A DNA stretch of 64,000 nt, from the NCBI RefSeq assembly GCF_000020125.1, contig NC_010681.1, positions 1,922,001 through 1,986,000 of the forward strand, read 5' to 3'. This document shows positions 8,658-31,137 of the stretch, one piece after another. Origin of the DNA: Paraburkholderia phytofirmans PsJN. Its GTDB lineage: Bacteria; Pseudomonadota; Gammaproteobacteria; Burkholderiales; Burkholderiaceae. Both the position numbers and the translations under genes were made by a program. The notes beneath the pieces were generated by a model. That model saw only the letters and a program-made list of their open reading frames with translations. It was not told where the DNA came from and did no database searches. Position 1 is the first letter of the stretch. Every line of letters starts with the position of its first letter.

Positions 8658-8765
8658 GCTTGGAATCCTGCAAAAGCCGGTCATCTTGCGGTGTCGCAGA
8701 TTGTTCGGCGAACTAAGGGGGAGCAGCGCCCCGAATGGTCGGCGTGCGACCAGACGCGGCGGTGT

Positions 8766-9074
8766 TCAGGCGGTCTTGGAGATTGCCTGGTGAATGGTCC
8801 TGCCTAGCCAGGCCGTGATCCCTGATCGGGCGGCAATGCCAACCAGACGCCGAGGTCCGAACGCTATGGCGCCGACGCTCAAAGCGAGAACCAACGAGAC
8901 ATGTGGCGCATCTGCTAGCGAAGCCAATATGCCGGCGGCGGGAGACCGGTTTAGTTCGCGTGAGCCGGAGATTGGCCGGGGCGTGCTGTTTGCTTCGACC
9001 AGCGCCGCGCGCGAGTCCGCCATTCGCATCAGAATCGCGGTCTCCTGGTCCTTGTTGCTGATTGCGCGTTTCAT
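8766..9074 (-). CDS. Small membrane-associated protein, YqjK position
   Basis: 102 residues. The start overlaps the stop of the upstream yqjE-like gene by 4 bases (ATGA), so it is coupled to it. The N-terminus is charged, and a hydrophobic stretch near residues 58-72 (VSLVLALSVGAIAFG) may cross the membrane. It holds the third position of a yqjD-yqjE-yqjK type operon. The resemblance to YqjK rests mainly on position and size, so I leave the symbol empty. Confidence 0.7.
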   Translation of the reverse strand: MKRAISNKDQETAILMRMADSRAALVEANSTPRPISGSRELNRSPAAGILASLADAPHVSLVLALSVGAIAFGPRRLVGIAARSGITAWLGRTIHQAISKTA

Positions 9075-9445
9075 TTGAGGGCTTCCCTGAGAGTGTCGAG
9101 ATCGCGCCGAATCTCAGTCTGGAGGATCTGCAGCGATTGTCCGGGCGTCTGCGAGCGAACGACGAGCAGAGCGACGACGGACACCGCTAGCCACATTCCT
9201 GCAACGCCCCACACCACTTGCAGAAAATAAGGGGTGCCCCAGGCAGTGGCGATGACCGCGATACACACGAACGACAGCGTGAAGAGGGCAGCCACGGCGA
9301 GGACTACTAGCGCGCTTAGTTCGCGTACCAGGCGTTGGCGGGTTTCCTCGAGTTCGATCCCGAACAGTTCGCCGTAGTCGGTAGCTCGCTCGACGCAGAA
9401 TGCGCTGACATTTCGCCACTTCGTGATTTTTGAGCGCACGGACAT
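9071..9445 (-). CDS. Phage holin family / YqjE-like inner membrane protein
   Basis: 124 residues. An N-terminal amphipathic part (ATDYGELFGIELEETRQRLVREL) is followed by two hydrophobic segments at about 43-68 and 73-96, then a charged tail. This is the Phage_holin_3_6 (YqjE) layout, found in stationary-phase membrane proteins and not in lytic holins. It sits between the DUF883 gene upstream and an overlapping small gene downstream, as in the E. coli yqj cluster. Confidence 0.83.
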   Translation of the reverse strand: MSVRSKITKWRNVSAFCVERATDYGELFGIELEETRQRLVRELSALVVLAVAALFTLSFVCIAVIATAWGTPYFLQVVWGVAGMWLAVSVVALLVVRSQTPGQSLQILQTEIRRDLDTLREALK

Positions 9446-9550
9446 TTACGAACTCCTCGGAGCAGGCACGTTTTTCGAAAGCGCCGTTGGGCAGCTGTGC
9501 AATCGGCTGCATAACGGTGTGGTCTCGTGCAAGCCGAGACGTCTGCCACG

Positions 9551-9847
9551 TTAATCCCGCTCTCTCCGGTTGCCGCTGTTGTTGTAGGCAACAGAGCGAC
9601 TCGATGCATGCAACGCTCCGAGAATAAAGCCGACGCTGGCGGCAATCGCAAGCGCCGCGAACGGCTTCTCCACGGTCGATTCGCGCACGACGTCCGTAAA
9701 ATCTGCACAGAGTTGCCGCGCTTTGCCGCTCAATTCGTTTGCGGTTCCGCTAATTTGCTCACCCGCGGTGGCCAGCAGATCCTTCCCAGCTGTCTGCACA
9801 TCGCTTGCAACTCGAGCCACCGTGTTGTCTCCGTTCGTCGTTTCCAT
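9551..9847 (-). CDS. DUF883 family protein (YqjD/ElaB-like)
   Basis: 98 residues from the ATG at 9845-9847, which has GGAGG 8 bases upstream; the TTG five codons earlier overlaps that site and is rejected. A helical, heptad-like body (VQTAGKDLLATAGEQ, ANELSGKARQL) precedes the C-terminal hydrophobic segment (ALAIAASVGFILGAL). That is the DUF883 pattern of YqjD/ElaB, tail-anchored proteins linked to ribosomes in stationary phase. First gene of the yqjDE-like operon. Confidence 0.88.
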   Translation of the reverse strand: METTNGDNTVARVASDVQTAGKDLLATAGEQISGTANELSGKARQLCADFTDVVRESTVEKPFAALAIAASVGFILGALHASSRSVAYNNSGNRRERD

Positions 9848-10120
9848 TTTCTGATCCTCCAATAGACCTGCAAGGTTGGCACTACGCGGGCCGGCGGGAG
9901 CGAATGCTCCGGTTCGTGACGTAATGGGTGTCGCAACGGCTGTACCTGAATGCCAACGGATGTTGTGGCCGGTCTATTGAGGTAGGAAGTACGAGTAAGC
10001 GGATCCGGCTTGGGAGAGCGGCAAGGTGGCAAAGGAGTTACTTTGCGAGGCAGCCATGGACGCGCCGCGATCCGCAAAAATCGTCGAAGCCGGTGTACGC
10101 ACGAAGCTGTAGAAAACAAA
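9848..10120. other. Spacer upstream of the yqjD-like operon
   Basis: Together with the terminator and up to the tRNA-Leu gene, about 340 bases without a protein gene. It should hold the yqjDE promoter. No clear -35/-10 pair or repeat was seen. Confidence 0.4.
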
Positions 10121-10152
10121 AAACCCCGTAAGACGTTGATCTTACGGGGTTT
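10121..10152 (-). terminator. Intrinsic terminator of tRNA-Leu
   Basis: A perfect 13-base stem (AAACCCCGTAAGA and its complement) with a 6-base loop, followed in the minus direction by a T-rich run. It stands 34 bases after the tRNA 3' end. Confidence 0.9.
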
Positions 10153-10186
10153 CTCGAACTTCTTCGGCTTACGCCGAAACGACTGA

Positions 10187-10273
10187 TGGTGCCCAGGAGA
10201 GGACTCGAACCTCCACGGTGTTGCCACCGCTAGGACCTGAACCTAGTGCGTCTACCAATTCCGCCACCTGGGC
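10187..10273 (-). tRNA. tRNA-Leu(CAG), copy 1
   Basis: 87 bases including the encoded CCA. Acceptor stem GCCCAGG/CCTGGGC pairs fully, the anticodon loop TTCAGGT gives CAG, and the long variable arm is typical of leucine tRNAs. Confidence 0.97.
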
Positions 10274-10476
10274 ACGTTTTCAAGCTAGACCGCTATTTTA
10301 GCGTGATGATTTAGCGTGTCAATCCCCACCTGCAAACTGACTCCGCTTCAATCAACCGCCCGGATATCGCGTGCAATGAAGGGATGCTTCATCACTCGAC
10401 AACCGTCCTGCCAACCACTCAATCCACCCAATAATCCGTGCTGATAAACAGAATCGGATCATTCGGCTTCACACAA

Positions 10477-10509
10477 AAAGTAAAGCCGCTCGTAAGCGGC
10501 TTTACTTTT
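10477..10509 (-). terminator. Intrinsic terminator of second tRNA-Leu
   Basis: A near-perfect stem of AAAGTAAAGCCGCT with its complement around a 4-base loop, followed on the minus strand by a T run. It lies 6 bases after the tRNA 3' end. Confidence 0.9.
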
Positions 10510-10514
10510 GAATC

Positions 10515-10601
10515 TGGTGCCCAAGAGAGGACTCGAACCTCCACAGTGTTGCCACCGCTAGGACCTGAACCTAGTGCGTCTACCAATTTCGCCACCTGGG
10601 C
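10515..10601 (-). tRNA. tRNA-Leu(CAG), copy 2
   Basis: 87 bases with encoded CCA, and the same anticodon as copy 1. I count three differences: one in the D-arm region (G to A), one in the variable arm and one in the acceptor 3' strand. The last two turn G-C pairs into G-U pairs, so folding is kept. Confidence 0.97.
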
Positions 10602-10736
10602 AGGTGATGAACAGCAAAGAACGCCATTATAGCGACAGATTGGAGCCTGTCAAGCGTTTCTCAAAACTCACTTAAACATCGCGGCGACGAGCCTGCGCGC
10701 GCCGCTGGACAACCGTCCGGCATCTATTGACAGGCC

Positions 10737-10765
10737 CGCTTGGGGCGCAATACGGGTGTTAGAAT
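10737..10765 (+). promoter_or_regulatory. Possible extended -10 promoter for rnr
   Basis: TGTTAGAAT at 10757-10765 reads as an extended -10 (TG-n-TAGAAT), with a weak -35 (CGCTTG) 17 bases upstream. It would give a leader of about 180 bases before rnr. The rest of 10602-10952 shows nothing else readable. Confidence 0.4.
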
Positions 10766-10952
10766 GCCTCGCAGTAGTTCGTTGGCACGGTGCACACGCC
10801 CGTCGGACTCAGCCTTGAACGAGCTGGACCCGAGCAGTTTTTTTCTGTGCATTTGCAGGTGCAATTCGAGCGCAGCCAAAGCGCAACCAGAGCGCACTGC
10901 AATCGCTTCCTAAGCCGAGCCACATCGCCGAGCCACATCGCGACCGACGTCC

Positions 10953-17952: not shown

Positions 17953-19350
17953 TCAGAATGCGTTGCGGCCGACAAAGCCCTTGAAGATCGTGATGAACAC
18001 GATCTTCATGTCGAACCAGAACGACCAGTTATGAATATAGAAGAGATCGAACTTGACGCGCGCTTCCATCTTTTCCACCTTGGTGGTGGCGCCGCGATAG
18101 CCGTTGACCTGCGCCCAGCCGGTGATGCCAGGCTTGATCCGGTAGCGGTGCATATAGCCGTACACCTGATCCTTGTATAGATCGTCGTGTTCGACCGCAT
18201 GCGGGCGCGGACCGACCACGGACATCTGCCCGAGCAACACGTTGAGAAACTGCGGCAGTTCGTCGAGACTGGTGCGGCGCATGAAGCCGCCGAGCTTCGT
18301 GACGCGCGCGTCGTTGCGCGAGGCCTGGGTGAGCTGGCCCTGCGCTTCGTGATGCACGGTCATCGAACGGAACTTGTAGATCGCGAACGGCTGGCCGTCC
18401 ACGCCCTTGCGCGTCTGACGAAAGAACACCGGCCCCGGCGAGCCGAGCTTGATGCCGATCGCGAGCGCCACGAAGACCGGCGCGAGCGCGAGCAGCGCAG
18501 CCGCCGCGAACAGCCGGTCGAAGATCAGCTTGGGCCACATCTGCGGCGACGAGAAGGGCGTCGCGCTGAGATTCAGCGTCGGTAAACCGACGACATCGAC
18601 CAGCGCGTGATTGAAAAGCGAGAGGCTGCGTACATCGGGAATGAAGCGCAGATTCACGAAGTCATGGCGGAACATGCGCGTGAAGCGGTAGATCGTATGT
18701 TCTTCCGACAGCGGCAACGCAAGCCACACTTCGTTCACGTGATCTTCACGCACCTTGGCGGCGAAGGCGTTCAGATCGGTCAGGACGGGCAGGCGGTTCA
18801 GACGTGCGCCGTACGGCTCGGCTGCTTCGAAACTGGTGTGGCAGCTCGTATCGAGCACGCAGACCGGTTTGAAGCCGGCTTGCGGCGCGTGTTCGAGATG
18901 GGCGAGCAGTGTGCGCGCAAAACCCGGTGCGCCGACAATTGCGACAGTGCGGGAATTCATCCCGCGACGCCGCACCATGCGCAGCACCGCGTGCACGAGG
19001 CACTTTGTAACGATGATCAGCGCGCCGGAAATCACCGTCGAGTAACCGAACCACAAGCGCGACACCGCATCCATGCGATGCAGCGTGAAAGCCAATACAA
19101 GCGCGGTGAACACAACCACCAGCCACGCGGCCGCCACTCTCGCCAGCATGGCGGGCAGCGGTTTGCCGCGCCAGGTTTCATACACCCCGAAGCCGGGAAA
19201 CAGCAACAGCAGGAGGACGCAGTTAAAGGCAATCAGAAGGCGTTCGGTGTCCGACAGCGCAATCGGCGTCGAGAACCGCATCCAGTGAGCGAGCAGCCCT
19301 CCCGCAATCACGAAGAGTACGTCGAGGAATCGCGCAGTATTCCTGAACAT
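17953..19350 (-). CDS. Undecaprenyl-phosphate glucose phosphotransferase (WcaJ-like)
   Basis: 465 residues. Four or five N-terminal membrane helices (about 5-105), a Rossmann-like CoA-binding-type domain (SRTVAIVGAPGFARTLLAHL, about 130-240), another helix (near 280), and the C-terminal bacterial sugar transferase domain with the motifs GSPGPVFFRQTRKGVDGQPF, KFRSMT, RRTSLDELPQFLNVL, GQMSVVGPRPHAVEHDD and KPGITGWAQVNGYRG. It puts the first sugar phosphate, usually glucose-1-phosphate, on undecaprenyl phosphate to start exopolysaccharide assembly. Close to burkholderial cepacian-type priming enzymes by layout. A Crp/Fnr regulator lies just upstream on the same strand. Confidence 0.93.
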   Translation of the reverse strand: MFRNTARFLDVLFVIAGGLLAHWMRFSTPIALSDTERLLIAFNCVLLLLLFPGFGVYETWRGKPLPAMLARVAAAWLVVVFTALVLAFTLHRMDAVSRLWFGYSTVISGALIIVTKCLVHAVLRMVRRRGMNSRTVAIVGAPGFARTLLAHLEHAPQAGFKPVCVLDTSCHTSFEAAEPYGARLNRLPVLTDLNAFAAKVREDHVNEVWLALPLSEEHTIYRFTRMFRHDFVNLRFIPDVRSLSLFNHALVDVVGLPTLNLSATPFSSPQMWPKLIFDRLFAAAALLALAPVFVALAIGIKLGSPGPVFFRQTRKGVDGQPFAIYKFRSMTVHHEAQGQLTQASRNDARVTKLGGFMRRTSLDELPQFLNVLLGQMSVVGPRPHAVEHDDLYKDQVYGYMHRYRIKPGITGWAQVNGYRGATTKVEKMEARVKFDLFYIHNWSFWFDMKIVFITIFKGFVGRNAF

Positions 19351-19386: not shown

Positions 19387-20121
19387 TTACTCGACGGTTT
19401 CAGCCTGACGCAGACGCGGCAGAAGGCGGTCGAATTCGCGTTTGACGAGGCCGTAGCATTCGCAGGCGCGTGCTTCGAGTCCTTTACGGTCGAGCACCTT
19501 GATGTGGCCGCGGCTGTGATGGATCAGGCCTTCGTCGTGCAACTTGCCGGCCGCTTCGGTGATGCCTTCGCGGCGCACGCCGAGCATGTCGGCGATCAGT
19601 TGCTGGGTGACGGTCAGATCGTTCGAGGCCACGCGGTCCACTTCGATCAGCAGCCACCGGCACAGTTGCTTGTTGAGCGCGTGATGGCGATTGCATGCAG
19701 CGGTTTGCGCGACTTGCGTGAGCAGGGCGTGCATGTACAGCAGCATCAGGCGGCGCAGGAAGTCGGAGCGGGCAAATTGCTGCTTGAGTGCCTGGGCGCT
19801 CATACGGTAAGCAAAGCCTGCGCATTGCACCTGCACGCGGTTCGGCATGGTTTCGCCGCCCGTGAGCACCGGCACGCCGGTCATGCCTTCGCGGCCGACC
19901 GCGGCGATTTCCACCGAGCTGCCGTCTTCCATCGTCGAGAGCATCGAGATGATCGCGGTGGTGGGGAAGTAGACGTGATGAATGCGCTGACCGGAGTCGC
20001 ACAGCAATTGCTCGGTGCGCAGATGAACCAGTTCGAGATGGGGAGCCAGCGCCTGCCATTCATGGGACGGCAATGCGCCGAGCAAATGGTTACCGTGCAA
20101 ATCGGATTGAAGTGTCAGCAT
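19387..20121 (-). CDS. Crp/Fnr family transcriptional regulator
   Basis: 244 residues from the ATG at 20119-20121, preceded by GAGGACC; the longer frame (to 20184) adds an unlikely leader. A cyclic-nucleotide-binding-like beta barrel (about 15-130, VYFPTTAIISMLSTMEDGSSVEIAAVG) is followed by a winged HTH (LTVTQQLIADMLGVRREGI). It lacks the Fnr cysteine cluster. It lies 36 bases before the priming transferase gene, so it may control exopolysaccharide synthesis. The ligand is unknown. Confidence 0.9.
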   Translation of the reverse strand: MLTLQSDLHGNHLLGALPSHEWQALAPHLELVHLRTEQLLCDSGQRIHHVYFPTTAIISMLSTMEDGSSVEIAAVGREGMTGVPVLTGGETMPNRVQVQCAGFAYRMSAQALKQQFARSDFLRRLMLLYMHALLTQVAQTAACNRHHALNKQLCRWLLIEVDRVASNDLTVTQQLIADMLGVRREGITEAAGKLHDEGLIHHSRGHIKVLDRKGLEARACECYGLVKREFDRLLPRLRQAETVE

Positions 20122-20750
20122 GATCGGTCCTCGCGTGAAAGTCGCGCTCTGCGTGACTTTCTGTTTTTGATCCGATGCCCGCATCCCTTTTTAACGGCGT
20201 GCTGCCTGGCGAGCAGCGAAGGATGAACAGGACCGGCCCCGTATTGGCCTTTGTTGCGCCGCCGCCGTTGTTGTGGATCTCTGCGGTGACGCGGTGTTGC
20301 GCTCTTCTATTAGCGAGGAGCGTGCCAGCGGGAGGCAAAACGAGGACTGGTGCGGGGTAACGCACCAAGGCTTAGCGCCGCGCGAAGGCAAACGTGACTT
20401 TTTGTTTCAAATCTGCACAACGTCCTCGCCGCCGGCGAGCGCGTCGCAGGCTCTGCCTGTTTCCCGGAAGTCCTTGATGCAGTTGGGTTGACGGGTGCTG
20501 GGAGGGGTTCGGAGGCACCTGTCTCACCGCTGAATCAGCGCCTCGGGGCACGTTCTCATGCGGCGTCCGGGATGTGCCGGAATTGATTCAGATGTGTTCA
20601 ACACGCTTGGTTCGCTGCCGCACCGATGAAGTTTTTGGCGCGCTAAAAGTCTGAGAAAAACCAACAGTGATTCCGCAGACCAGACAGATGAAGACGCGCA
20701 GCGTGAGCTTTTGCGCGCCTTGCGAAGGGTTGGTTAGATCAGGGAGACCA
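20122..20750. other. Intergenic region, no supported gene
   Basis: About 630 bases between the Crp/Fnr gene start and the end of the GH2 gene. Short frames on both strands look like noise. A small perfect inverted repeat (CTCGCCG-C-CGGCGAG) is at 20425-20439 without a T tract. The Crp/Fnr promoter must be here, but no clear elements were seen. Confidence 0.4.
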
Positions 20751-23399
20751 TCAGCCGTAGAAGATGGCGGATAACGCATTGACCGCGCGAACTTCGCCCG
20801 CGGGCGCCGGGTATGTTGCATCAGCTTGAAACACGCCACTCGATGCCTGTGCAACGAATCTTTCCTGCGACGCGAGCGCAATGAGCGGCACGATGCATGG
20901 CCGGTTCGGCGGCAGATGAAACCAGTCGCGCGCGGCCCTGTAGTGTGTGTCAACGATATGAACGAAACGCACAAAACGCTTCGCTTCGATCATGAGTTGC
21001 CAGTTGTCGCCGTTGCGTTCCACGCTGACCGTCAGGCCCAGATCGTGGCGCTCGCTCACACGCCGCTCCGGGAGATGAAACGCTTCCGCCACCACCTCGC
21101 CACTCGCCAGGTCGCGCAGTGTGGCAATCGTCACGTCGTGCGCGCGCGGGCCGAAGCGATATGCGTGGGTGAAGTCGAAGAACTGGCCGAGACACGCGGC
21201 CGCGCTGAGACGCTGCACACTGTGCGGCGCCAGCTCCACTTCGCGACTGGCAGAGGCGACCTTGACGCTGCCGTCACGCAGGCAAACGAGTTCCAGTTGC
21301 GCGCGCAGCGGCTGCGCACGTTCGTTCAGCAGATGAATATCAAGCCCGTTGAGGCCCTCGTCGGTGATGACGGCCTGAATGGGTTGCAGCGCTTGCGCGA
21401 GGCCGTGCAGGGCGCTTTTAGGCCGTCCTGTGGCGTCGATCAAGCCCCAGCCTGCGCCGGGACGCAAATCCTGCAGCTGCCAGACCAGCGCGCCGCCGCA
21501 ACTGGAACCGGCGCGGCGCCATTCCGCGAATACATCGCCCATCAGTTCGGCGACCACCGCGCGCGACAGGTCCAGATAGCGCTCGGGGTCTTCGTAGCGC
21601 AAGCGTGCCGGCTCGACACCGTATAACGTCTGCAGATAATGATCGCGCACGTCGTCGAAATCCCAGCCGGAGCCGGGGTCGCGCGGCACCGCGGCTTTCC
21701 AGCGCGGATCGTGCAGATGAATCGTGCCGAGCGCGTCGTGCAGCGTGGCGTCGTCGGGCACGTTGGCGAAGGCAAGGCATTCGGCGGCGAAGCGCACCTG
21801 CGAGCGGCGCACGTCGTCGAGCGGACGCTGATAGGCGCCCACGCCGTAGTAGTGAGTGACGCCCTCATTAGTTGAAAACGGCCACACGCCCCCCGATGGC
21901 GAGTTGCCGACATACGGCACGTCGGGCCGTTCACGCGCGACGATGGCGGGCAGTTGTTCAGTAAAAAGTGGTTGCGCGCGCATCGAAGGCGGCAGGCCGA
22001 ACATGGCCGCCTGCTGGTCGACCTCGCTGCCGCCGCACAGCATCGCGAGCGAAGCGAAGCGCCGTGTGCGCGTTAAAAATTGCGTCGCTTCGCGTTCGAT
22101 CGACGCGCTGAATGCGGCATCGTTCGGATAGTCGAAATTCGCCAATGCGAAGTCTTGCCAGACGAGCATGCCGTATTCGTCGGCGAGCGCATAAAACGCG
22201 TCGGACTCGTAGACCATCGTGCCGCCCACGCGCAGCATGTTCATGCCCGCATCGCGAGCCAGCGTGAACGCGTGGCGCAGTTGCGCCTCGCTGCCGGCGA
22301 GTGTGACGAGGTCCGCGCTGGTCCAGCATGCGCCCCGGCAAAACACCGGCACGCCATTCAGGCGCAGCGCGAAGCCCATACCGTCCGCGCCGCGGTCCAC
22401 TTCGATACTGCGGAAACCGACTGAACCCAATGCGTGAGATGTCGCGTGCCCGTCATCGAGCTGCAATGTCAATGGATATAAAGTGGGCTCGCCGTGCGTA
22501 TGCGGCCACCAGCGCTTCGCATCCGACACGCGTACGCTGCCGGTCAGTGTATATGCATTGCTCCATTGCAAAGACGAAACAGCGTCGCCGCATTTAAGCG
22601 AAGCGCGGCAGGCCGCGTCATCGTGCGGATGAACGAAACGTAGCGTGACCGTAACAAGGCCTGAAGCAAGACCGTCGTCATTGAGCTCGATGTGGCTCGA
22701 GACGTCGACGTTATCGAAAGCGTGCGGCGCGTCGCTCAGCAGTTCGACCGGACGCCATGGGCCGACCGCCTGCACCGATGGACACCAGCCAGGCATATGG
22801 CCGAGCAGGGTGGTGCGCACGTTGCGCAAGGTGGGCGGCGAGACGAGCCGCGGACGCCACCGCGCGCGCGAGCGTTTCGCCGTCAACGCCGGAGTGAGAG
22901 AGCGGAAGCACAGCGCGAGCGTTGCGCTGCCGTTCAGCTCGATGTCCAGATCGTGCGCGACGAACATCGAATCGGAATCGAGACGCTTCACCCCGTCGAG
23001 CCAGACTTCGGCGATGGTGGCGAGGCCATGCAGACGCAAGCGGCGACGGCCGGTGCCTTCGAGCGCGAGGCAATACCAGTGGTCGTCGAAAGCGAGCGGC
23101 GGCGGGTGCGCGAGGTCCAGCAGACCCGCGGCGCGGCGCGCGCTCGCAACGGTGCCGGGCACTTGCGCGGCGAGCCAGCCGTGCGTGGGTAAATCGGCGG
23201 GCGAGGCGCACGCGCCCGCGGGCGTGCTGACACACTGCCAGCCGGTATCGAGACGCCGCGGCCAGAGCGTTTGCGATACGCGCGCCAACGATGCGCCATT
23301 GGCATCGGCATCGGTTTGCGCGGCCTCGTCAGGCGTGGGCGCGAGCACACCGCTCGCGCCCCCTTCATCAGGCACAAGGTCTATCGTCAGTCCATCCAC
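20751..23399 (-). CDS. Glycoside hydrolase family 2 / beta-mannosidase-like protein
   Basis: 882 residues from a GTG at 23397-23399 with CGGGGA upstream. Layout: GH2 sugar-binding domain (about 50-225), Ig-like domain (about 230-335, ending FRSIEVDR), TIM barrel (from LNGVPVFCRGACW at 348). The acid/base Glu is probably Glu459 (LCGGSEVDQQ, where mannosidases have WxGNNE), and a candidate nucleophile is Glu540 (FAAECLAF). Both motifs are divergent (GNN is GGS), so activity is uncertain. There is no signal peptide, so it is cytoplasmic. It is the last gene of the carrier-protein operon, 40 bases after DUF1839, where a glycosidase is unexpected; it may act on a sugar-linked product. Confidence 0.85.
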   Translation of the reverse strand: MDGLTIDLVPDEGGASGVLAPTPDEAAQTDADANGASLARVSQTLWPRRLDTGWQCVSTPAGACASPADLPTHGWLAAQVPGTVASARRAAGLLDLAHPPPLAFDDHWYCLALEGTGRRRLRLHGLATIAEVWLDGVKRLDSDSMFVAHDLDIELNGSATLALCFRSLTPALTAKRSRARWRPRLVSPPTLRNVRTTLLGHMPGWCPSVQAVGPWRPVELLSDAPHAFDNVDVSSHIELNDDGLASGLVTVTLRFVHPHDDAACRASLKCGDAVSSLQWSNAYTLTGSVRVSDAKRWWPHTHGEPTLYPLTLQLDDGHATSHALGSVGFRSIEVDRGADGMGFALRLNGVPVFCRGACWTSADLVTLAGSEAQLRHAFTLARDAGMNMLRVGGTMVYESDAFYALADEYGMLVWQDFALANFDYPNDAAFSASIEREATQFLTRTRRFASLAMLCGGSEVDQQAAMFGLPPSMRAQPLFTEQLPAIVARERPDVPYVGNSPSGGVWPFSTNEGVTHYYGVGAYQRPLDDVRRSQVRFAAECLAFANVPDDATLHDALGTIHLHDPRWKAAVPRDPGSGWDFDDVRDHYLQTLYGVEPARLRYEDPERYLDLSRAVVAELMGDVFAEWRRAGSSCGGALVWQLQDLRPGAGWGLIDATGRPKSALHGLAQALQPIQAVITDEGLNGLDIHLLNERAQPLRAQLELVCLRDGSVKVASASREVELAPHSVQRLSAAACLGQFFDFTHAYRFGPRAHDVTIATLRDLASGEVVAEAFHLPERRVSERHDLGLTVSVERNGDNWQLMIEAKRFVRFVHIVDTHYRAARDWFHLPPNRPCIVPLIALASQERFVAQASSGVFQADATYPAPAGEVRAVNALSAIFYG

Positions 23400-23439
23400 G
23401 GCAAATCCCCGAGAAGTCCGCGAAGCCGCGCAAGGCGTG

Positions 23440-24522
23440 TTACAGCACCAGCGCGGCGAGCGGCGGCAGCGTCTTTTCGTAAGCGCTTTCGAGCACGTCG
23501 AAGCAGTCTTCGCACAGATCGCGGCGCCCGCGGGTAATCGCCCGCACGAGCCGGAACTGCATCACCATCGACTCCGACGCGATGCTCTGCGCCGCTGCCG
23601 GAATCGACGCCGGCACCTCGAAGCCTTGCGCGGAGAGCCACGTCAGATACTTCGAGAGAAACTCGAAGTTCGCGCCGAGTTGCCGCATCAGGTTGAACGA
23701 GTACGGGTGGAAGAACTTTTCGCCACGTTCGAGCAACGTCTCGAGATGTGCGGGAAATGCGGCACGCCACTGAGTAATCGGATTGCTAAGCGGCCGGCGG
23801 CTCAGGTGCGCACACAGCAGTTCCGCCGAAGCCTCCGCGAGCGCGGTGCCTTCGAGCGCGGGCCGCGACTGCTTGGCGAACTCCACATACGGAAACAGCA
23901 GATCAGCCTGCTGCTGGAACTGCGGCAGCTTGCGGAACACGCCGTCGTAGTCTTCACCGTCGAGCAGATGATAGCCGGTGTTGTGAAAGTAGCCGAGACG
24001 GCGCGCGTCCGGATCGATGAAGTCGATGCCCACAGTGGTCTTCGGATGCTCGCGCCGGTACGACGTGGCGCGCGTATTCGGCAGGTAATAGCCGTCCACT
24101 TCCACCAGCACCGTATGACCGCGCAAGGTCTGCGCGAGCACGCGTGCTTCGAGCGAATCGTAGATGGCCAGTTCCTGCACCTGAGTGCCGTAGAGCCGTT
24201 CGAGATCTTCGAGCGGAAACTTGAAGAACGTAAACTGATCGCCTTCGAAATCCTGCGTGACGGTAAAGCCGAGCGCCGCGCGCGGTTCTAGCCCGAAGCC
24301 GTGCAGCAGTTCGATCCACAGATCGACGTAGCAGTTTGTCTCCTGCCATACACGCTCGCCCTGATGCAGCGCGTGCGGCGCATGCTCGCGCAAGCGCGCT
24401 GCGGGCGCTGCGGGCGAGGTAACGGCGCCGCCGGCAGCGGGCAGATCGACGTGGCGGCTCAGCGGAAAAGCGCCATTTGCGCCGTTCGCGCCATTCGGCA
24501 CGGGTATCAGAGACGGATTCAT
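23440..24522 (-). CDS. DUF1839 family protein, possible BtrH-like acyltransferase
   Basis: 360 residues; the start overlaps the ligase stop by 4 bases. The N-terminal 50 residues are low-complexity (three NGA repeats, then Ala/Pro). The conserved part starts at ETNCYVDLWIELLHGFGLEP with Cys64, then VEVDGYYLP (Asp143), REHPKTTVGIDFID (His159, Asp167/Asp170) and GYFHNTGYH. The order Cys...Asp-x-Tyr-x-LPx...His...Asp recalls the BtrH_N papain-like fold, which transfers an acyl group from a carrier protein to an amine. In this operon it could release the aminoacyl group from the carrier protein. Membership of DUF1839 is firm; the enzymatic role is my inference. Confidence 0.82.
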   Translation of the reverse strand: MNPSLIPVPNGANGANGAFPLSRHVDLPAAGGAVTSPAAPAARLREHAPHALHQGERVWQETNCYVDLWIELLHGFGLEPRAALGFTVTQDFEGDQFTFFKFPLEDLERLYGTQVQELAIYDSLEARVLAQTLRGHTVLVEVDGYYLPNTRATSYRREHPKTTVGIDFIDPDARRLGYFHNTGYHLLDGEDYDGVFRKLPQFQQQADLLFPYVEFAKQSRPALEGTALAEASAELLCAHLSRRPLSNPITQWRAAFPAHLETLLERGEKFFHPYSFNLMRQLGANFEFLSKYLTWLSAQGFEVPASIPAAAQSIASESMVMQFRLVRAITRGRRDLCEDCFDVLESAYEKTLPPLAALVL

Positions 24523-25583
24523 ACGCGCTCTCCGGAATCGTGCTCCGTGTCATCGGACGCCGTTCGCATGGTTTCCATGCCATGCGCCACACGCGCCTGG
24601 GTATCGCCCCACAGCAGCGCACGCACGTCGTCTGGCCACGCGTTCACGTCGAGCCCATGATGACGGAATAGCGCGAGGGTGATCCGTTCCATGCCGAAAC
24701 CGACACAACCCGTATGCGCGATCGCGCCGTCTTCGCACTCGATCTTCCAGATCGCGCCGAAGTGCTCCATGTGATAGTTGAACGACAGGCACGCCGTCTT
24801 GCCGCGCGGATCGGCCACCGGAATCAGCAGTTCGAACTTCAGCGCCTGGGCACGCTGGCTATCGGCGACGATCTTGCCGCCGCGGCCGAAGAACGGGTCG
24901 TTGGCGAGATCCACTTCGACCGGCAATTGCAGCAGATCGATAAGCAGCGAGCCGCGCTCGATCCACATCTGCCGGAACGCCATCACCTGCTCGGCGTTGC
25001 CCAGGCGCACGTATTCGCGCTGGCGGAACATCTGCATGCGGCCCGGATCCAGCGACGGCTCGTGACGGAAGCAATACGACAGCACATCGATCGTGCGGCC
25101 GCCGGCCGGCAACGGACCGCGCCGCGCCATCACCGGATAGATCGGGTAGCAGGCGGCCGGCGTGAGCACGACGCGAGTCGGCTTCTGCTGCGCCATCCAG
25201 TCGTCGCTGCGATCGTCGTCGCGTTCGGTCATGGCGTCGTCGAGCGCGCGCAACAGGCGTTGGTGGCCCATGTCGTTGCCGCAGAACGAGTGAATCGTGC
25301 CGGCCAGGTTCGGGAAGCTCTTCAGATACTCGCTGTCTTCGAAGTCGGTGCGGCGCATGGCGGGCGGGAAACGCAGCAGTTCCGGCTGCTGATCCGCGCC
25401 GAGATGCGTGATCGCCACGTTCAGGCGGTCCACCACGTCTTCGAAAATCTGACTGCGGCCATACAGGCCGTTTTCGCCGGTGTCGATCAACAGGCCCGCG
25501 GCCAGCAGTTCGTCGCGAAAGCTCGGCGCCTCGGCTGCCTGAGCAGCGGCGGCAAGGGCGGCGGTATCGGTCATCGTGTTCAT
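24519..25583 (-). CDS. Amino acid:[carrier protein] ligase (SerRS-like, class II)
   Basis: 354 residues from the ATG at 25581-25583 (GGAGAG upstream). A class II aaRS catalytic core without the tRNA-binding coiled coil: motif 2 CFRHEPSLDPGRMQMFRQRE and motif 3 GFGMERITLALFR. Zn ligands Cys145, Glu190 and Cys293 are present, with the same spacing I recall for the Bradyrhizobium enzyme Bll0957. Such enzymes activate a small amino acid (glycine or alanine) with ATP and load it on the phosphopantetheine of a dedicated carrier protein, not on tRNA. The start is one base away from the upstream dehydrogenase stop, and the carrier protein is two genes upstream. Confidence 0.92.
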   Translation of the reverse strand: MNTMTDTAALAAAAQAAEAPSFRDELLAAGLLIDTGENGLYGRSQIFEDVVDRLNVAITHLGADQQPELLRFPPAMRRTDFEDSEYLKSFPNLAGTIHSFCGNDMGHQRLLRALDDAMTERDDDRSDDWMAQQKPTRVVLTPAACYPIYPVMARRGPLPAGGRTIDVLSYCFRHEPSLDPGRMQMFRQREYVRLGNAEQVMAFRQMWIERGSLLIDLLQLPVEVDLANDPFFGRGGKIVADSQRAQALKFELLIPVADPRGKTACLSFNYHMEHFGAIWKIECEDGAIAHTGCVGFGMERITLALFRHHGLDVNAWPDDVRALLWGDTQARVAHGMETMRTASDDTEHDSGERV

Positions 25584-25584
25584 A

Positions 25585-26871
25585 TCAGGCTCTCCCCGGG
25601 GCGGCAGGTCGTTGCGCGAGCAACAGGCTCGCGGTGTTCTGCGCAATGCGGTCGTTATTGATCATCAGCGGCGCGGAATGCAGGTCGCGCAAATGGCGCC
25701 CGACGCTGTACGGCGTGCCGTTCTTGTAGCCCGCCATGCCGCAGATCATCAGCACTTCGTGCACGACCTGCAGCCCGGTGGTGGAGATACTCGTCTTCAG
25801 CGTGTTCATGTCGGAGGCAAAGCCGAGCATGGCCGCGAGCGGCGCGTCGGCTTGCGAGCCGCCATGGCGCGCGTGGTGAGCGGTGCGTGCCGCCTCCAGC
25901 GCGACCGCGAGGCGCGCCTGCATCATCTGCAGCAGACCGACCGCTTCAGCAAGGCGCAAACCGGCCGGCGGTACCACACCCGGCTTCGCGCGCGCCTGCG
26001 CGCGGAAGAACGCTTTCGCGCGATTCACGGCGTCCGTGGCCACGCCGGTCCACACCGAGGCCCACAGCGTGTGCGAGACCGGCAGCATGGTCTGATCGGC
26101 GATCTCGGCGAAGGGCGTCGGCAGGATCTGTTCGGCCAGACCCGTGGCGACGAGCCGGAAGCCCTCGCTGCAGGTGCCGCGCATGCCCATCGAATCCCAG
26201 CCGCCGCGCTTTTCCAGTTGCGTATCGGAGCGCAACGCGACGATCAGCACCTGGTCGGCTGCGGCCGATTCGGCGGTGCGGCGAGCGGTGACGAGAATGC
26301 CATCGGCGTGCGCGCCATACGAAATCGTCGGTGCGAGCTTTTCGATGCGAAAGCGCGCACCGTCGAGTTCGACCGAGCAGGCGCTGGTGCGCATATTGCC
26401 GCCGATGGTTTCCTCGGACGTGGCCGACGCCAGCAGCCACTGCTGCTTGACCAGTTGCACGAGCAACTGCCGATGCCATACCGCGTCGCTGCCGTGCGCC
26501 TCGATGCACGCCACCTGGATCTGGTGCATTGCATACACCATCGCGGTGGAGGCGCAGCCTTGCGCGAGCGTTTCGCAGATCGCGCCGACGTCCGCGAGCG
26601 AGAGGCCCGCGCCGCCGAACTCGGTCGGCACCATCACCGAGAGCAGGCACTCGCGCTTGAGCGCCTCAAATGCTTCGCTCGGGAAACGCGCCTCGCGATC
26701 CACCGAATCCGCGAACTGCGCGGCCACCGCCGCACAGCGTTGCGCGGCCGCGCGCCAGCCTGGTTCGGTTTCGACCGCGGTTAAGCCGAGCGACGTATCG
26801 GCGCCTTGCGCCGCACCGTGCGCGTGCCTCGAGGCGGGCTCTGCCGCCGCATCCAGCAGCGGGGCGTTCAT
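25585..26871 (-). CDS. Acyl-CoA dehydrogenase-like flavoprotein
   Basis: 428 residues; the start overlaps the carrier-protein stop by 4 bases. It has the N-terminal helical domain (ECLLSVMVPTEFGGAGLSLADVG), the middle beta domain (LLASATSEETIGGNM, GGWDSMGMRGTCSEGF) and the C-terminal helices with VHEVLMICGMAGY and GRHLRDLHSAP. Where ordinary acyl-CoA dehydrogenases carry EGT with the catalytic Glu, it reads MINNDRI (403-409). That suggests a different chemistry, such as flavin monooxygenase or oxidase action as in DszC-like relatives, or a base elsewhere. The substrate is probably an aminoacyl group on the neighbouring carrier protein. Confidence 0.87.
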   Translation of the reverse strand: MNAPLLDAAAEPASRHAHGAAQGADTSLGLTAVETEPGWRAAAQRCAAVAAQFADSVDREARFPSEAFEALKRECLLSVMVPTEFGGAGLSLADVGAICETLAQGCASTAMVYAMHQIQVACIEAHGSDAVWHRQLLVQLVKQQWLLASATSEETIGGNMRTSACSVELDGARFRIEKLAPTISYGAHADGILVTARRTAESAAADQVLIVALRSDTQLEKRGGWDSMGMRGTCSEGFRLVATGLAEQILPTPFAEIADQTMLPVSHTLWASVWTGVATDAVNRAKAFFRAQARAKPGVVPPAGLRLAEAVGLLQMMQARLAVALEAARTAHHARHGGSQADAPLAAMLGFASDMNTLKTSISTTGLQVVHEVLMICGMAGYKNGTPYSVGRHLRDLHSAPLMINNDRIAQNTASLLLAQRPAAPGRA

Positions 26872-27119
26872 GCTGCCGCCTTCGCCTGTTGCAGCTCGGT
26901 GACTGCGGCGGCCATCGAATCGATGCTGGAGAACAGGCGCCGCGTCAGCAGACGGTCCGGAATCTCAATGCCGAATTCGTCTTCGATTGCGAGCATCAGA
27001 TGCACGGTCGCGAGTGAGGAGAGGCCTGCGGCGTAGAGGTCGGCGTCGTCGGCCAGCGTCTCCGCCGGGACGTCCAGGCGGGCCGATTCGGAAAGGATGC
27101 GGCGCAAGGCGTTTTTCAT
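26868..27119 (-). CDS. Acyl/aminoacyl carrier protein
   Basis: 83 residues from the ATG at 27117-27119 (GGGGACC upstream); a longer frame to 27203 is rejected. A four-helix carrier fold is suggested by size and composition. The phosphopantetheine site is Ser35 in AAGLSSLATVHLML, with Ser in place of the usual Asp of DSL. The acidic helix III region reads AIEDEFGIEIPD. First gene of the operon, and the likely partner of the amino acid ligase. Confidence 0.9.
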   Translation of the reverse strand: MKNALRRILSESARLDVPAETLADDADLYAAGLSSLATVHLMLAIEDEFGIEIPDRLLTRRLFSSIDSMAAAVTELQQAKAAA

Positions 27120-29354: not shown

Positions 29355-30572
29355 ATGAATCGCATCGTAGAACCAGGCAATCCGCTTGCGTCGACCAGGG
29401 ACGTCAGCGAAACGGCCACACGTTTATCCGTGCAGCCGGTGATTTTCGCAGATGGCTTGGGCGCACGATCGTGGCCGTTGTCGCGCGAACGCAATCCGAA
29501 ACGCTCGGTCGACCGCATGGGCGACGCGTCGCTGCTTGAATCCACGCTGAGAACCACGCTGAGCCGGCTCGACGCGTCGTTCGTCGCGGCGCACCACGTT
29601 ACGCCGGCGTCCAGTCCACGATCCATTGCGGCACCCTTGATGGTCTGCTGCGAAGACCTGCATCGGCAATCGCGCGAACCGCTGGAGCGGCTCGCCCGTT
29701 CGGGCCGGTCGGTGCGCATGGTGCTCCAACCGATAGCTCGCGATACCGCGCCCGCGCTGACCATCGCTGCGCTCGCCGCGCGCGCGGCGGCCGTGGAGGG
29801 CGACGATCCGCTCATCGTCGCGTTGCCGGCGGATCATCCGATTGCCGATCACGTTGCGTTCGGCGTGGCGCTCGCCGAGGCGCTCGAGCACGCGACGCAC
29901 GGTGCGCTCGTCGCGCTCGGCGTGCCGCCCAGGCGCGCGGAAACCGGCTTTGGCTACATCCGCACGGGGGCCGCGCTCGGCAAACGGGGCGCGCGCGTCA
30001 TCGAACGGTTCGTCGAGAAGCCCGATCCGGAACTGGCTGAACGCTATGCCGCATTGGGCAATTACTGGTGGAACAGCGGCCTGTTCGTGGTGCGCGCGTC
30101 GGTGTGGCTCGCGGCCATCGCGCTCTGCCATCCCGCAATCGCCGAGGCCTGCGCGGCCGCGTTCGAGCGTGCCACGGTCGACGGCGACGGCACGCTGCAC
30201 GTGGCGCGCGATCAGTTGGCCCTGTGCCCGTCCCGTTCGATCGACTACGCGGTGATGGAGCGCGTCGGCAGCGACGCGCGCGTGGCAGGCGTCACCGTGC
30301 CGTTCGTCGCGGGGCGCGCGCAAGCGTGCGCCTGGGATTCGGTGATACGCGTCGCGCGCGGCGAGGAATGTTTCATGCTCGCGGAGGAAAACCCGTCGAC
30401 GTATGCTCCGCCCGGCGTCACGCACCGGCTGGCAAATACGGGCAGGACGCCGCGAGAAATGATCGAAGTCCAATCAGGCGGCCATCTGGGCGAAGACGAC
30501 ATCGTGCGTTTCGAGGACCCGTTCGGTCGCAATCTGGAGAGCGCTCATGCACGCAAACGTACTTCAGGCTGA
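29355..30572 (+). CDS. ManC/AlgA-like protein with internal deletion and altered signature
   Basis: 405 residues, start after GGGGACC. It aligns by eye with mannose-1-phosphate guanylyltransferase/mannose-6-phosphate isomerase: RDTAPALTIAAL, LPADHPIADHV, GFGYIRTG, ERFVEKPDPELAERYAALGN, WNSGLF, CPSRSIDYAVME. The nucleotide-binding signature GGSGTRLWPLSR is DGLGARSWPLSR (33-44) and the following PKQ is PKR. After AWDSV (about 326-330) it passes directly to RVARGEECFMLAEENPSTY and the C-terminal end of the isomerase cupin (PPGVTHRLANTG, EVQSGGHLGEDDIVRFED). The end of the transferase and the metal-binding QMHHHRxEHW part of the isomerase are gone. Isomerase activity is very unlikely and transferase activity doubtful, but the frame is open and ends in the flavin reductase gene. 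Confidence 0.8.
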   Translation: MNRIVEPGNPLASTRDVSETATRLSVQPVIFADGLGARSWPLSRERNPKRSVDRMGDASLLESTLRTTLSRLDASFVAAHHVTPASSPRSIAAPLMVCCEDLHRQSREPLERLARSGRSVRMVLQPIARDTAPALTIAALAARAAAVEGDDPLIVALPADHPIADHVAFGVALAEALEHATHGALVALGVPPRRAETGFGYIRTGAALGKRGARVIERFVEKPDPELAERYAALGNYWWNSGLFVVRASVWLAAIALCHPAIAEACAAAFERATVDGDGTLHVARDQLALCPSRSIDYAVMERVGSDARVAGVTVPFVAGRAQACAWDSVIRVARGEECFMLAEENPSTYAPPGVTHRLANTGRTPREMIEVQSGGHLGEDDIVRFEDPFGRNLESAHARKRTSG

Positions 30573-31137
30573 GACGCAGTGCGTCTCGCAGGCGAGTTTC
30601 GACGAGCGGCGCTTTCGTCACGCGTTGGGACGCTTCGCGACCGGCGTGGTGGTGATCTCGACCGGCAGCGGCGACGACTTGCACGCGATGACCGCTAACG
30701 CCTTCATGTCGGGTTCGCTCAAGCCGCCGCTGATCGTCGTCTCGGTCGGGCACCGGGCGCGCATGCACGAGCGTCTGATGGACAGAGCGCTATTCGGTGT
30801 GAGCGTATTGTCGGAGGCGCAGGAGCCGCATAGCCGCCACTTTGCCGGCGAGCCGCAGAGCCGGCTCGCGCCGCGCTTCGCGCCGGTCGAAGGGCTCGCG
30901 GACGTGGTGCTGCTCGAACACGCGGCAGCGCGGTTCGCCGCGCGCGTGGTGGACCGGCATCCGTGCGGCGACCATACGCTGTTTGTCGGCGAGGTGCTGG
31001 TGTTCTCGCTCGATGAACACGCGCCGCTGATCTTTTTCGGCGGACGTTATGGATCGGTCGCAGCGTCGGATTCTATTCAGCGATCCACTGCCGCATGCGC
31101 GCAGGAATCGCCGCCCATTGCCGCGAGCGCCTCCTGA
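30547..31137 (+). CDS. Flavin reductase family protein
   Basis: 196 residues with GGAGAG before the ATG. It overlaps the ManC-like gene by 26 bases, so they are cotranscribed. The FMN-binding split-barrel pattern is clear: FRHALGRFATGVVVIST, DLHAMTANAFMSGSLKPPLIVVSV, FGVSVLSEAQEPHSRHFAG, DHTLFVGEVLVFS and PLIFFGGRYGSV. Such proteins reduce FMN or FAD with NAD(P)H and pass it to a monooxygenase. The partner is not visible nearby; the flavoprotein at 25.6 kb and SsuD at 47.2 kb are candidates, purely as inference. Confidence 0.9.
   Translation: MHANVLQAETQCVSQASFDERRFRHALGRFATGVVVISTGSGDDLHAMTANAFMSGSLKPPLIVVSVGHRARMHERLMDRALFGVSVLSEAQEPHSRHFAGEPQSRLAPRFAPVEGLADVVLLEHAAARFAARVVDRHPCGDHTLFVGEVLVFSLDEHAPLIFFGGRYGSVAASDSIQRSTAACAQESPPIAASAS

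Follow-up and report, generated by a model that had tools for sequence, protein, structure and literature searches.

The butirosin side chain is built by BtrI/BtrJ/BtrO/BtrV/BtrH, that is, by a ligase, a carrier protein (CP), a flavin oxygenase and a papain-like transferase acting on the aminoglycoside, and the pathways of CtaG (closthioamide) and AziU2-U3 (azinomycin) yield small natural products. In the lincosamide pathways, as described in the accessible portion of PMC12945683, CcbD/LmbD join a carrier-bound amino acid to an amino sugar by means of a Cys nucleophile; the loader, according to the available text of PMC4351081, is an adenylation domain of the non-ribosomal peptide synthetase (NRPS) type, LmbC/CcbC. 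A further setting was outlined in a 2010 note in proof (PMC2922099), which, in the part available, described the neighbourhood of an amino acid:CP ligase (an acyl carrier protein, a redox enzyme, a ligase resembling seryl-tRNA synthetase (SerRS), the conserved uncharacterised protein Atu2574 and a glycosidase) and predicted both an amide to a cell-surface amino sugar and a monooxygenation. Here we analyse an operon of this kind in Paraburkholderia phytofirmans PsJN, within a window of 64,000 nucleotides (the whole stretch of DNA analysed; NC_010681.1, positions 1,922,001 to 1,986,000). It has the same kinds of part as the butirosin pathway (ligase, CP, flavin enzyme and a putative transferase), and it carries a SerRS-like ligase where the lincosamide pathways have an adenylation domain. 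The pathway is real, conserved and unsolved; having already been noticed in 2010, it is not a new idea in print. The accessible text of PMC2922099 rests on context, while the fold evidence, the counts, the tandem hydrolase and the duplicated copy reported below come from the present analysis. Overall, the operon probably encodes a CP pathway making an amino acid-amino sugar amide, in turn probably for exopolysaccharide; amide synthesis from an aminoacyl-CP is quite likely when taken by itself, and the exopolysaccharide end point falls a little short of an even prospect.

An earlier, sequence-only reading of the window had placed five tightly packed minus-strand genes at 20751-27119, and their coordinates, joints and family matches were all confirmed:

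26868-27119, minus strand: CP of 83 aa with phosphopantetheine (Ppant) Ser35, start ATG at 27119 (NF005480, PF00550)
25585-26871, minus strand: flavoprotein of the acyl-CoA dehydrogenase superfamily (PF02771), with the acyl-CoA dehydrogenase fold and without the usual catalytic Glu
24519-25583, minus strand: amino acid:[carrier protein] ligase, SerRS-like, 354 aa, start ATG at 25583 (NF005479)
23440-24522, minus strand: DUF1839 protein of 360 aa (PF08893; Cys64 / Thr162-163 / His180), proposed aminoacyl-CP:amine amide synthase
20751-23399, minus strand: GH2 protein, beta-mannosidase-like, 882 aa, start GTG at 23399 (PF22666, PF00703)

As read in the sequence, the CP and flavoprotein genes overlap by 4 bases, as do the ligase and DUF1839 genes; 1 base separates the flavoprotein stop from the ligase start and 40 bases the DUF1839 stop from the GH2 start, and AGGGGA precedes the CP start. 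An antisense open frame within the flavoprotein gene (26144-26902, plus strand), which a composition-based choice of reading frames favoured over the real gene, is an artefact of GC-rich sequence.

The destination of the aminoacyl group hinges on the DUF1839 protein (448 bits against the PF08893 cut-off of 22.5). Its predicted fold matches those of CcbD, AziU2-U3 and CtaG, the match with CcbD/LmbD being a whole-chain one over 288 residues, and because of this fold we assign to it the transfer step. Cys64 is present in 138 and His180 in all of 144 aligned proteins, and Thr162/163 lie on the strand preceding the one that ends at His180. The Cys-His-Glu triad of CcbD/LmbD is not found in the DUF1839 protein, where the corresponding residues are Cys-Thr/Ser-His; the accessible portion of PMC10318531 describes DUF1839 as papain-like with a C(T/S)H triad in which His and Thr/Ser are switched. 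Judged from secondary structure and from that portion, Cys64 and His180 would match the CcbD residues spatially. This evidence moves the DUF1839 protein from a guess by context to a predicted, fold-supported amide synthase. Atu2574 of the 2010 neighbourhood we take to be a DUF1839 gene.

The likeness is one of fold: CtaG and AziU2-U3 act on substrates other than those of DUF1839 and have no detectable sequence similarity to it, and a sequence-profile search of the PDB with DUF1839 gave chance-level matches only, with no CcbD/LmbD, CtaG or AziU2-U3 chain up to E 10. Membership of the BtrH family (PF14399), tried as a candidate, gained no support: hhalign with seven BtrH_N relatives returned an 18-column match at a probability of 0.7% and nothing global, in an alignment of low diversity; a BtrH relative used as query found no PDB chain. 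A literature search with subscription journals outside its reach found no paper tying DUF1839 to CcbD-type enzymes and none joining aminoacyl-CP amide chemistry with exopolysaccharide.

Two other roles for this protein were weighed. As a thioesterase or hydrolase it would clear the CP or edit its cargo, leaving transfer to another protein; the papain-like superfamily in which PMC10318531 places it, in the text available, is rich in hydrolases, and a congener of the host (genome G322, below) has a CP, an adenylation domain and a tandem hydrolase without DUF1839. We regard this role as improbable. The same portion of PMC10318531 offers the published guess, based on genomic context, that DUF1839 acts on glycans in the cell wall. 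No signal-peptide-like N-terminus is visible by eye in any of the five operon proteins, which argues against such a location. The other members, moreover, use ATP, Ppant and flavin, which are cytoplasmic cofactors, and we hold this role to be very improbable.

If the proposed amide synthase and the aminoacyl-CP machinery work together, their genes should travel together, and a survey of 398 evenly sampled Pseudomonadota genomes (host genome included) supports this strongly. DUF1839 is present in 16 of these genomes and a ligase above the NF005479 cut-off in 28; the ligase adjoins DUF1839 on the same strand in all 16, and by tblastn the flavoprotein stands beside the ligase in 28 of 28. Both adjacencies occur more than by chance, which upholds the association proposed from the sequence alone. 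Another 16 genomes have weak ligase matches under the cut-off; in the eight of them that were fetched, the stretch contains no flavoprotein. At E 1e-20, a GH2 homologue occurs in all 16 genomes with DUF1839 (class A) and in none of the other 12 with an over-cut-off ligase (class B). A ligase tree was used solely to separate classes A, B and C, because two class A rows (G255 and G328) fall on an implausible branch (length 9.45) and long branches meet. The 8.2 Mb host genome was found to hold a single copy each of the DUF1839 gene and the NF005479-type ligase, and the ligase rows nearest to its own are from Paraburkholderia.

All five genes are present in 108 of the 129 loci that reach 13 kb or more, and the order CP-flavoprotein-ligase-DUF1839-GH2 is identical in 105 of the 108; the remaining three (L143, L166, L167) keep this order and carry in addition a second DUF1839 copy that scored best. 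These loci are not independent, because 75 of the 129 come from one scan and from Paraburkholderia, Caballeronia and other Burkholderia-group genomes, and at least one contig was apparently included twice (L081 and L139, both on contigs of 521,174 bases). Annotated records of Azospirillum, Mycetohabitans, Rhizobium, Shinella and Phyllobacterium show the five genes in this order too; for R. acidisoli, tblastn supplied the GH2 gene, which has no annotation there. Two out of four named Cupriavidus plasmid records were examined, and Cupriavidus carries DUF1839 copies with and without the Cys.

Class B operons showed no recognisable substitute transferase among the neighbours scanned. In two of them (L156:9763-13012 and L157:7197-10447, neighbours assigned by clustering in the former and by scan in the latter) the ligase is followed by a PLP enzyme of Cys/Met metabolism and a homoserine O-succinyltransferase-like gene, and six genomes (L146-L151; family label f48, genus label g109) pair the class B ligase with the flavoprotein and lack both DUF1839 and GH2. 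The available text of PMC10888616 gives a fold change of 3.0 for bll0957 and bll0958 in a phaR mutant at low oxygen. On a Rhizobium leguminosarum Vaf10 plasmid (L175:13968-18176), DUF1839 and GH2 matches occur with no CP or flavoprotein match and with transposase genes nearby; this copy is probably decaying.

As to the presumed loading step, the CP scores 125.6 bits (NF005480 cut-off 72) and also matches PF00550; the ligase scores 534 bits (NF005479 cut-off 357), its PDB relatives are 4h2w and 3mey (Bll0957; E 1e-84 or better), and the SerRS model covers it only at model positions 312-503 of 518, that is, the catalytic core without the tRNA-binding domain. The CP Ser35 and the ligase Cys145/Glu190/Cys293 singled out from the sequence are indeed present and are conserved in at least 97% of 124 CPs and 138 ligases, respectively, counts that exclude proteins with an internal stop or of too short or too long a chain; in the alignments they carry the numbers S63 and C166/E211/C314, since the aligned rows also contain codons upstream of the starts. 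The three ligase residues align with the same residues of Bll0957, which presumably are its zinc ligands. Bll0957 reportedly loads glycine and, less well, alanine. Structures of such ligases are already solved (PDB search), and they have no known biological role according to the accessible part of PMC9437257.

As to the presumed oxidation step, the flavoprotein matches PF02771 (Acyl-CoA_dh_N) and has an acyl-CoA dehydrogenase fold, and across 134 aligned flavoproteins the catalytic Glu of acyl-CoA dehydrogenases is absent at both positions that we take to be those of MCAD and LCAD/IVD: Ile404 (RD+8) is Ile in 133 and Val in one, and position 266 is Ser in 116, Ala in 11, Thr in 4 and Cys in 3, next to a His267 found in all 134. 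The top phmmer row is TdsC (E 1e-11), followed by a dehydrogenase at 2e-11; Foldseek ranks 1-6 are two-component flavin monooxygenases (DszC/TdsC, DnmZ, KijD3 group), while VIA places dehydrogenases first and the top NCBIfam model, under its cut-off, is a dehydrogenase. The balance tips slightly to oxygenation rather than classical alpha,beta-dehydrogenation.

The GH2 protein has beta-mannosidases as its closest PDB relatives (E 8e-43). Its catalytic glutamates, E460 and E541, are aligned and conserved in at least 97% of 104 proteins, and the residue before the acid/base Glu is Ser459, not Asn (GGSE vs CGNNE), with Ser in at least 97% of the same set. Its substrate is likely unusual.

To these five genes the analysis adds a sixth member, a protein of ~600 residues, encoded near many of the operons, whose two alpha/beta-hydrolase domains are similar to hydr2_PEP and hydr1_PEP. 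Three such tandem hydrolases score 102, 109 and 77 bits against hydr1_PEP (cut-off 168) and 64, 109 and 71 against hydr2_PEP (cut-off 203). Since the hydr1_PEP model is not specific (283 of the 398 genomes match at E 1e-3, and none of the 25 over its cut-off is a DUF1839 genome), the whole tandem protein was used as query; at E 1e-20 it found 17 genomes, namely all 16 with DUF1839 and G322. Fisher's test for this co-occurrence gives 1e-27, uncorrected for relatedness, the 16 genomes spanning four families. For 35 of the 110 loci a tandem hydrolase lies within ~10 kb on either side (the window is counted among the 110 and not among the 35). The host genome has two copies, both far from the operon; the three neighbours scanned for the second (L188) comprise an ABC permease and a pair of proteins that match no family.

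G322, of the same genus as the host, lacks the operon, with neither DUF1839 nor an over-cut-off ligase in the survey. At L190:7014-10809 it has in a row an adenylation domain of the NRPS type (346 bits with TIGR01733, cut-off 317), a CP (8721-8981, PF00550; 53% identical to the window CP over 76 residues) and the tandem hydrolase (8956-10809), with a Wzc gene bordering one end of the row and a GDP-mannose 4,6-dehydratase gene the other. We take this cluster to be a version of the operon's theme that uses a different loader; it lacks DUF1839, and the tandem hydrolase therefore does not require it. Exosortase-A exopolysaccharide clusters (hydr1/hydr2, ligase_PEP_1) share the theme of a CP, an AMP-forming ligase and hydrolases 1 and 2, but the operon-linked tandem hydrolase is under both curated cut-offs. 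CcbD/LmbD are not known to have a GH2 protein or such a hydrolase as partner.

The neighbourhood bears on what kind of product is made. Near the operon, the window contains:

17953-19350, minus strand: WcaJ-type undecaprenyl-phosphate glucose phosphotransferase (TIGR03023, 505 bits, cut-off 411), exopolysaccharide context
19387-20184, minus strand: Crp/Fnr-type protein (PF13545, PF00027) downstream of the operon, its likely regulator
29355-30572, plus strand: mannose-1-phosphate guanylyltransferase-like protein (TIGR01479, 272 bits, under the cut-off of 373), context only
30547-31137, plus strand: StyB/HpaC-like flavin reductase (NF045733, 123 bits, under the cut-off of 200), possibly the electron partner of the flavoprotein

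A Crp-type regulator occurs in 68 of the 110 DUF1839 loci (window included) and a guanylyltransferase-like gene in 18; the flavin reductase is near the operon in 16 only. O-antigen-ligase-like and glycosyltransferase genes occur in four Paraburkholderia- or Caballeronia-type loci.

The same chemistry could instead serve a small, diffusible metabolite of the lincosamide or butirosin kind, containing an amino sugar, that the GH2 protein and hydrolases trim or release. In its favour, the nearest proteins by fold (CcbD, CtaG and AziU2-U3) belong to pathways for small natural products; on two Rhizobium plasmids the operon stands directly behind nifHDKENX, fdxB and a gene for an exopolysaccharide repressor; and the Azospirillum and Mycetohabitans stretches read have no annotated polysaccharide synthesis genes. 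Against this stands the company kept by the tandem hydrolase, which shares one chain with a Wzx-type flippase domain in Rhizobium sp. NLR16a and G253 (a fusion), is preceded by a flippase gene in G107 and directly by a Wzc gene in G255, and has Wzc one gene upstream for one of two copies in G000 and beside the trio of G322 (of 11 such neighbourhoods, reading frames were listed in five, with some scanned, and the other six were covered by tblastn only). Also against it, a WcaJ-type match above 55 bits is found in 60 of the 110 loci, although these WcaJ and Crp neighbours mostly represent one Paraburkholderia-Caballeronia synteny group, with partners rearranged in L130, L169, L143 and L167. On balance, a small metabolite seems unlikely as the product. 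The nif-linked copies lie on nif-bearing plasmids of R. gallicum and R. acidisoli (L173:9604-16496 and L177:11640-14960), and the R. gallicum operon is followed by an annotated ACC deaminase gene. No NifA site or full sigma-54 pattern was found before either copy; matches to the bare GG-N10-GC core number 3 in each nif-linked stretch and likewise 3 in the window control.

From gene conservation, predicted fold, residue conservation and co-occurrence we infer each reaction, substrate, acceptor and polysaccharide of the following scheme. The SerRS-like ligase would activate a small amino acid and load it on the Ser35-phosphopantetheine of the CP; the flavoprotein would oxidise the CP-bound aminoacyl group, oxygenation being somewhat likelier than alpha,beta-dehydrogenation; Cys64 of the DUF1839 protein would accept the acyl group and hand it on to an amine, as CcbD/LmbD do with an amino sugar; and the GH2 protein and tandem alpha/beta hydrolase may work on the sugar side or on the conjugate, the end product most likely being an exopolysaccharide sugar unit. 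Loading, oxidation and transfer to a sugar-containing acceptor, as first proposed from the sequence, thus remain the best-supported reading, changed in that transfer now falls by fold to the DUF1839 protein, the flavoprotein lacks the acyl-CoA dehydrogenase catalytic Glu, a sixth gene has joined the set and the idea dates in print to 2010. More tentatively, these genes may represent a widespread machine in which a CcbD-fold amide synthase, an aminoacyl-CP oxygenase, a flippase-linked tandem hydrolase and interchangeable loaders place an oxidised amino acid onto exopolysaccharide.

If the DUF1839 protein is the acceptor enzyme, the destination of the aminoacyl group becomes directly assayable. 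If the proposed pathway is true, lincosamide-type amide chemistry would extend from antibiotics to the surface polysaccharides of bacteria associated with plants, fungi and soil.
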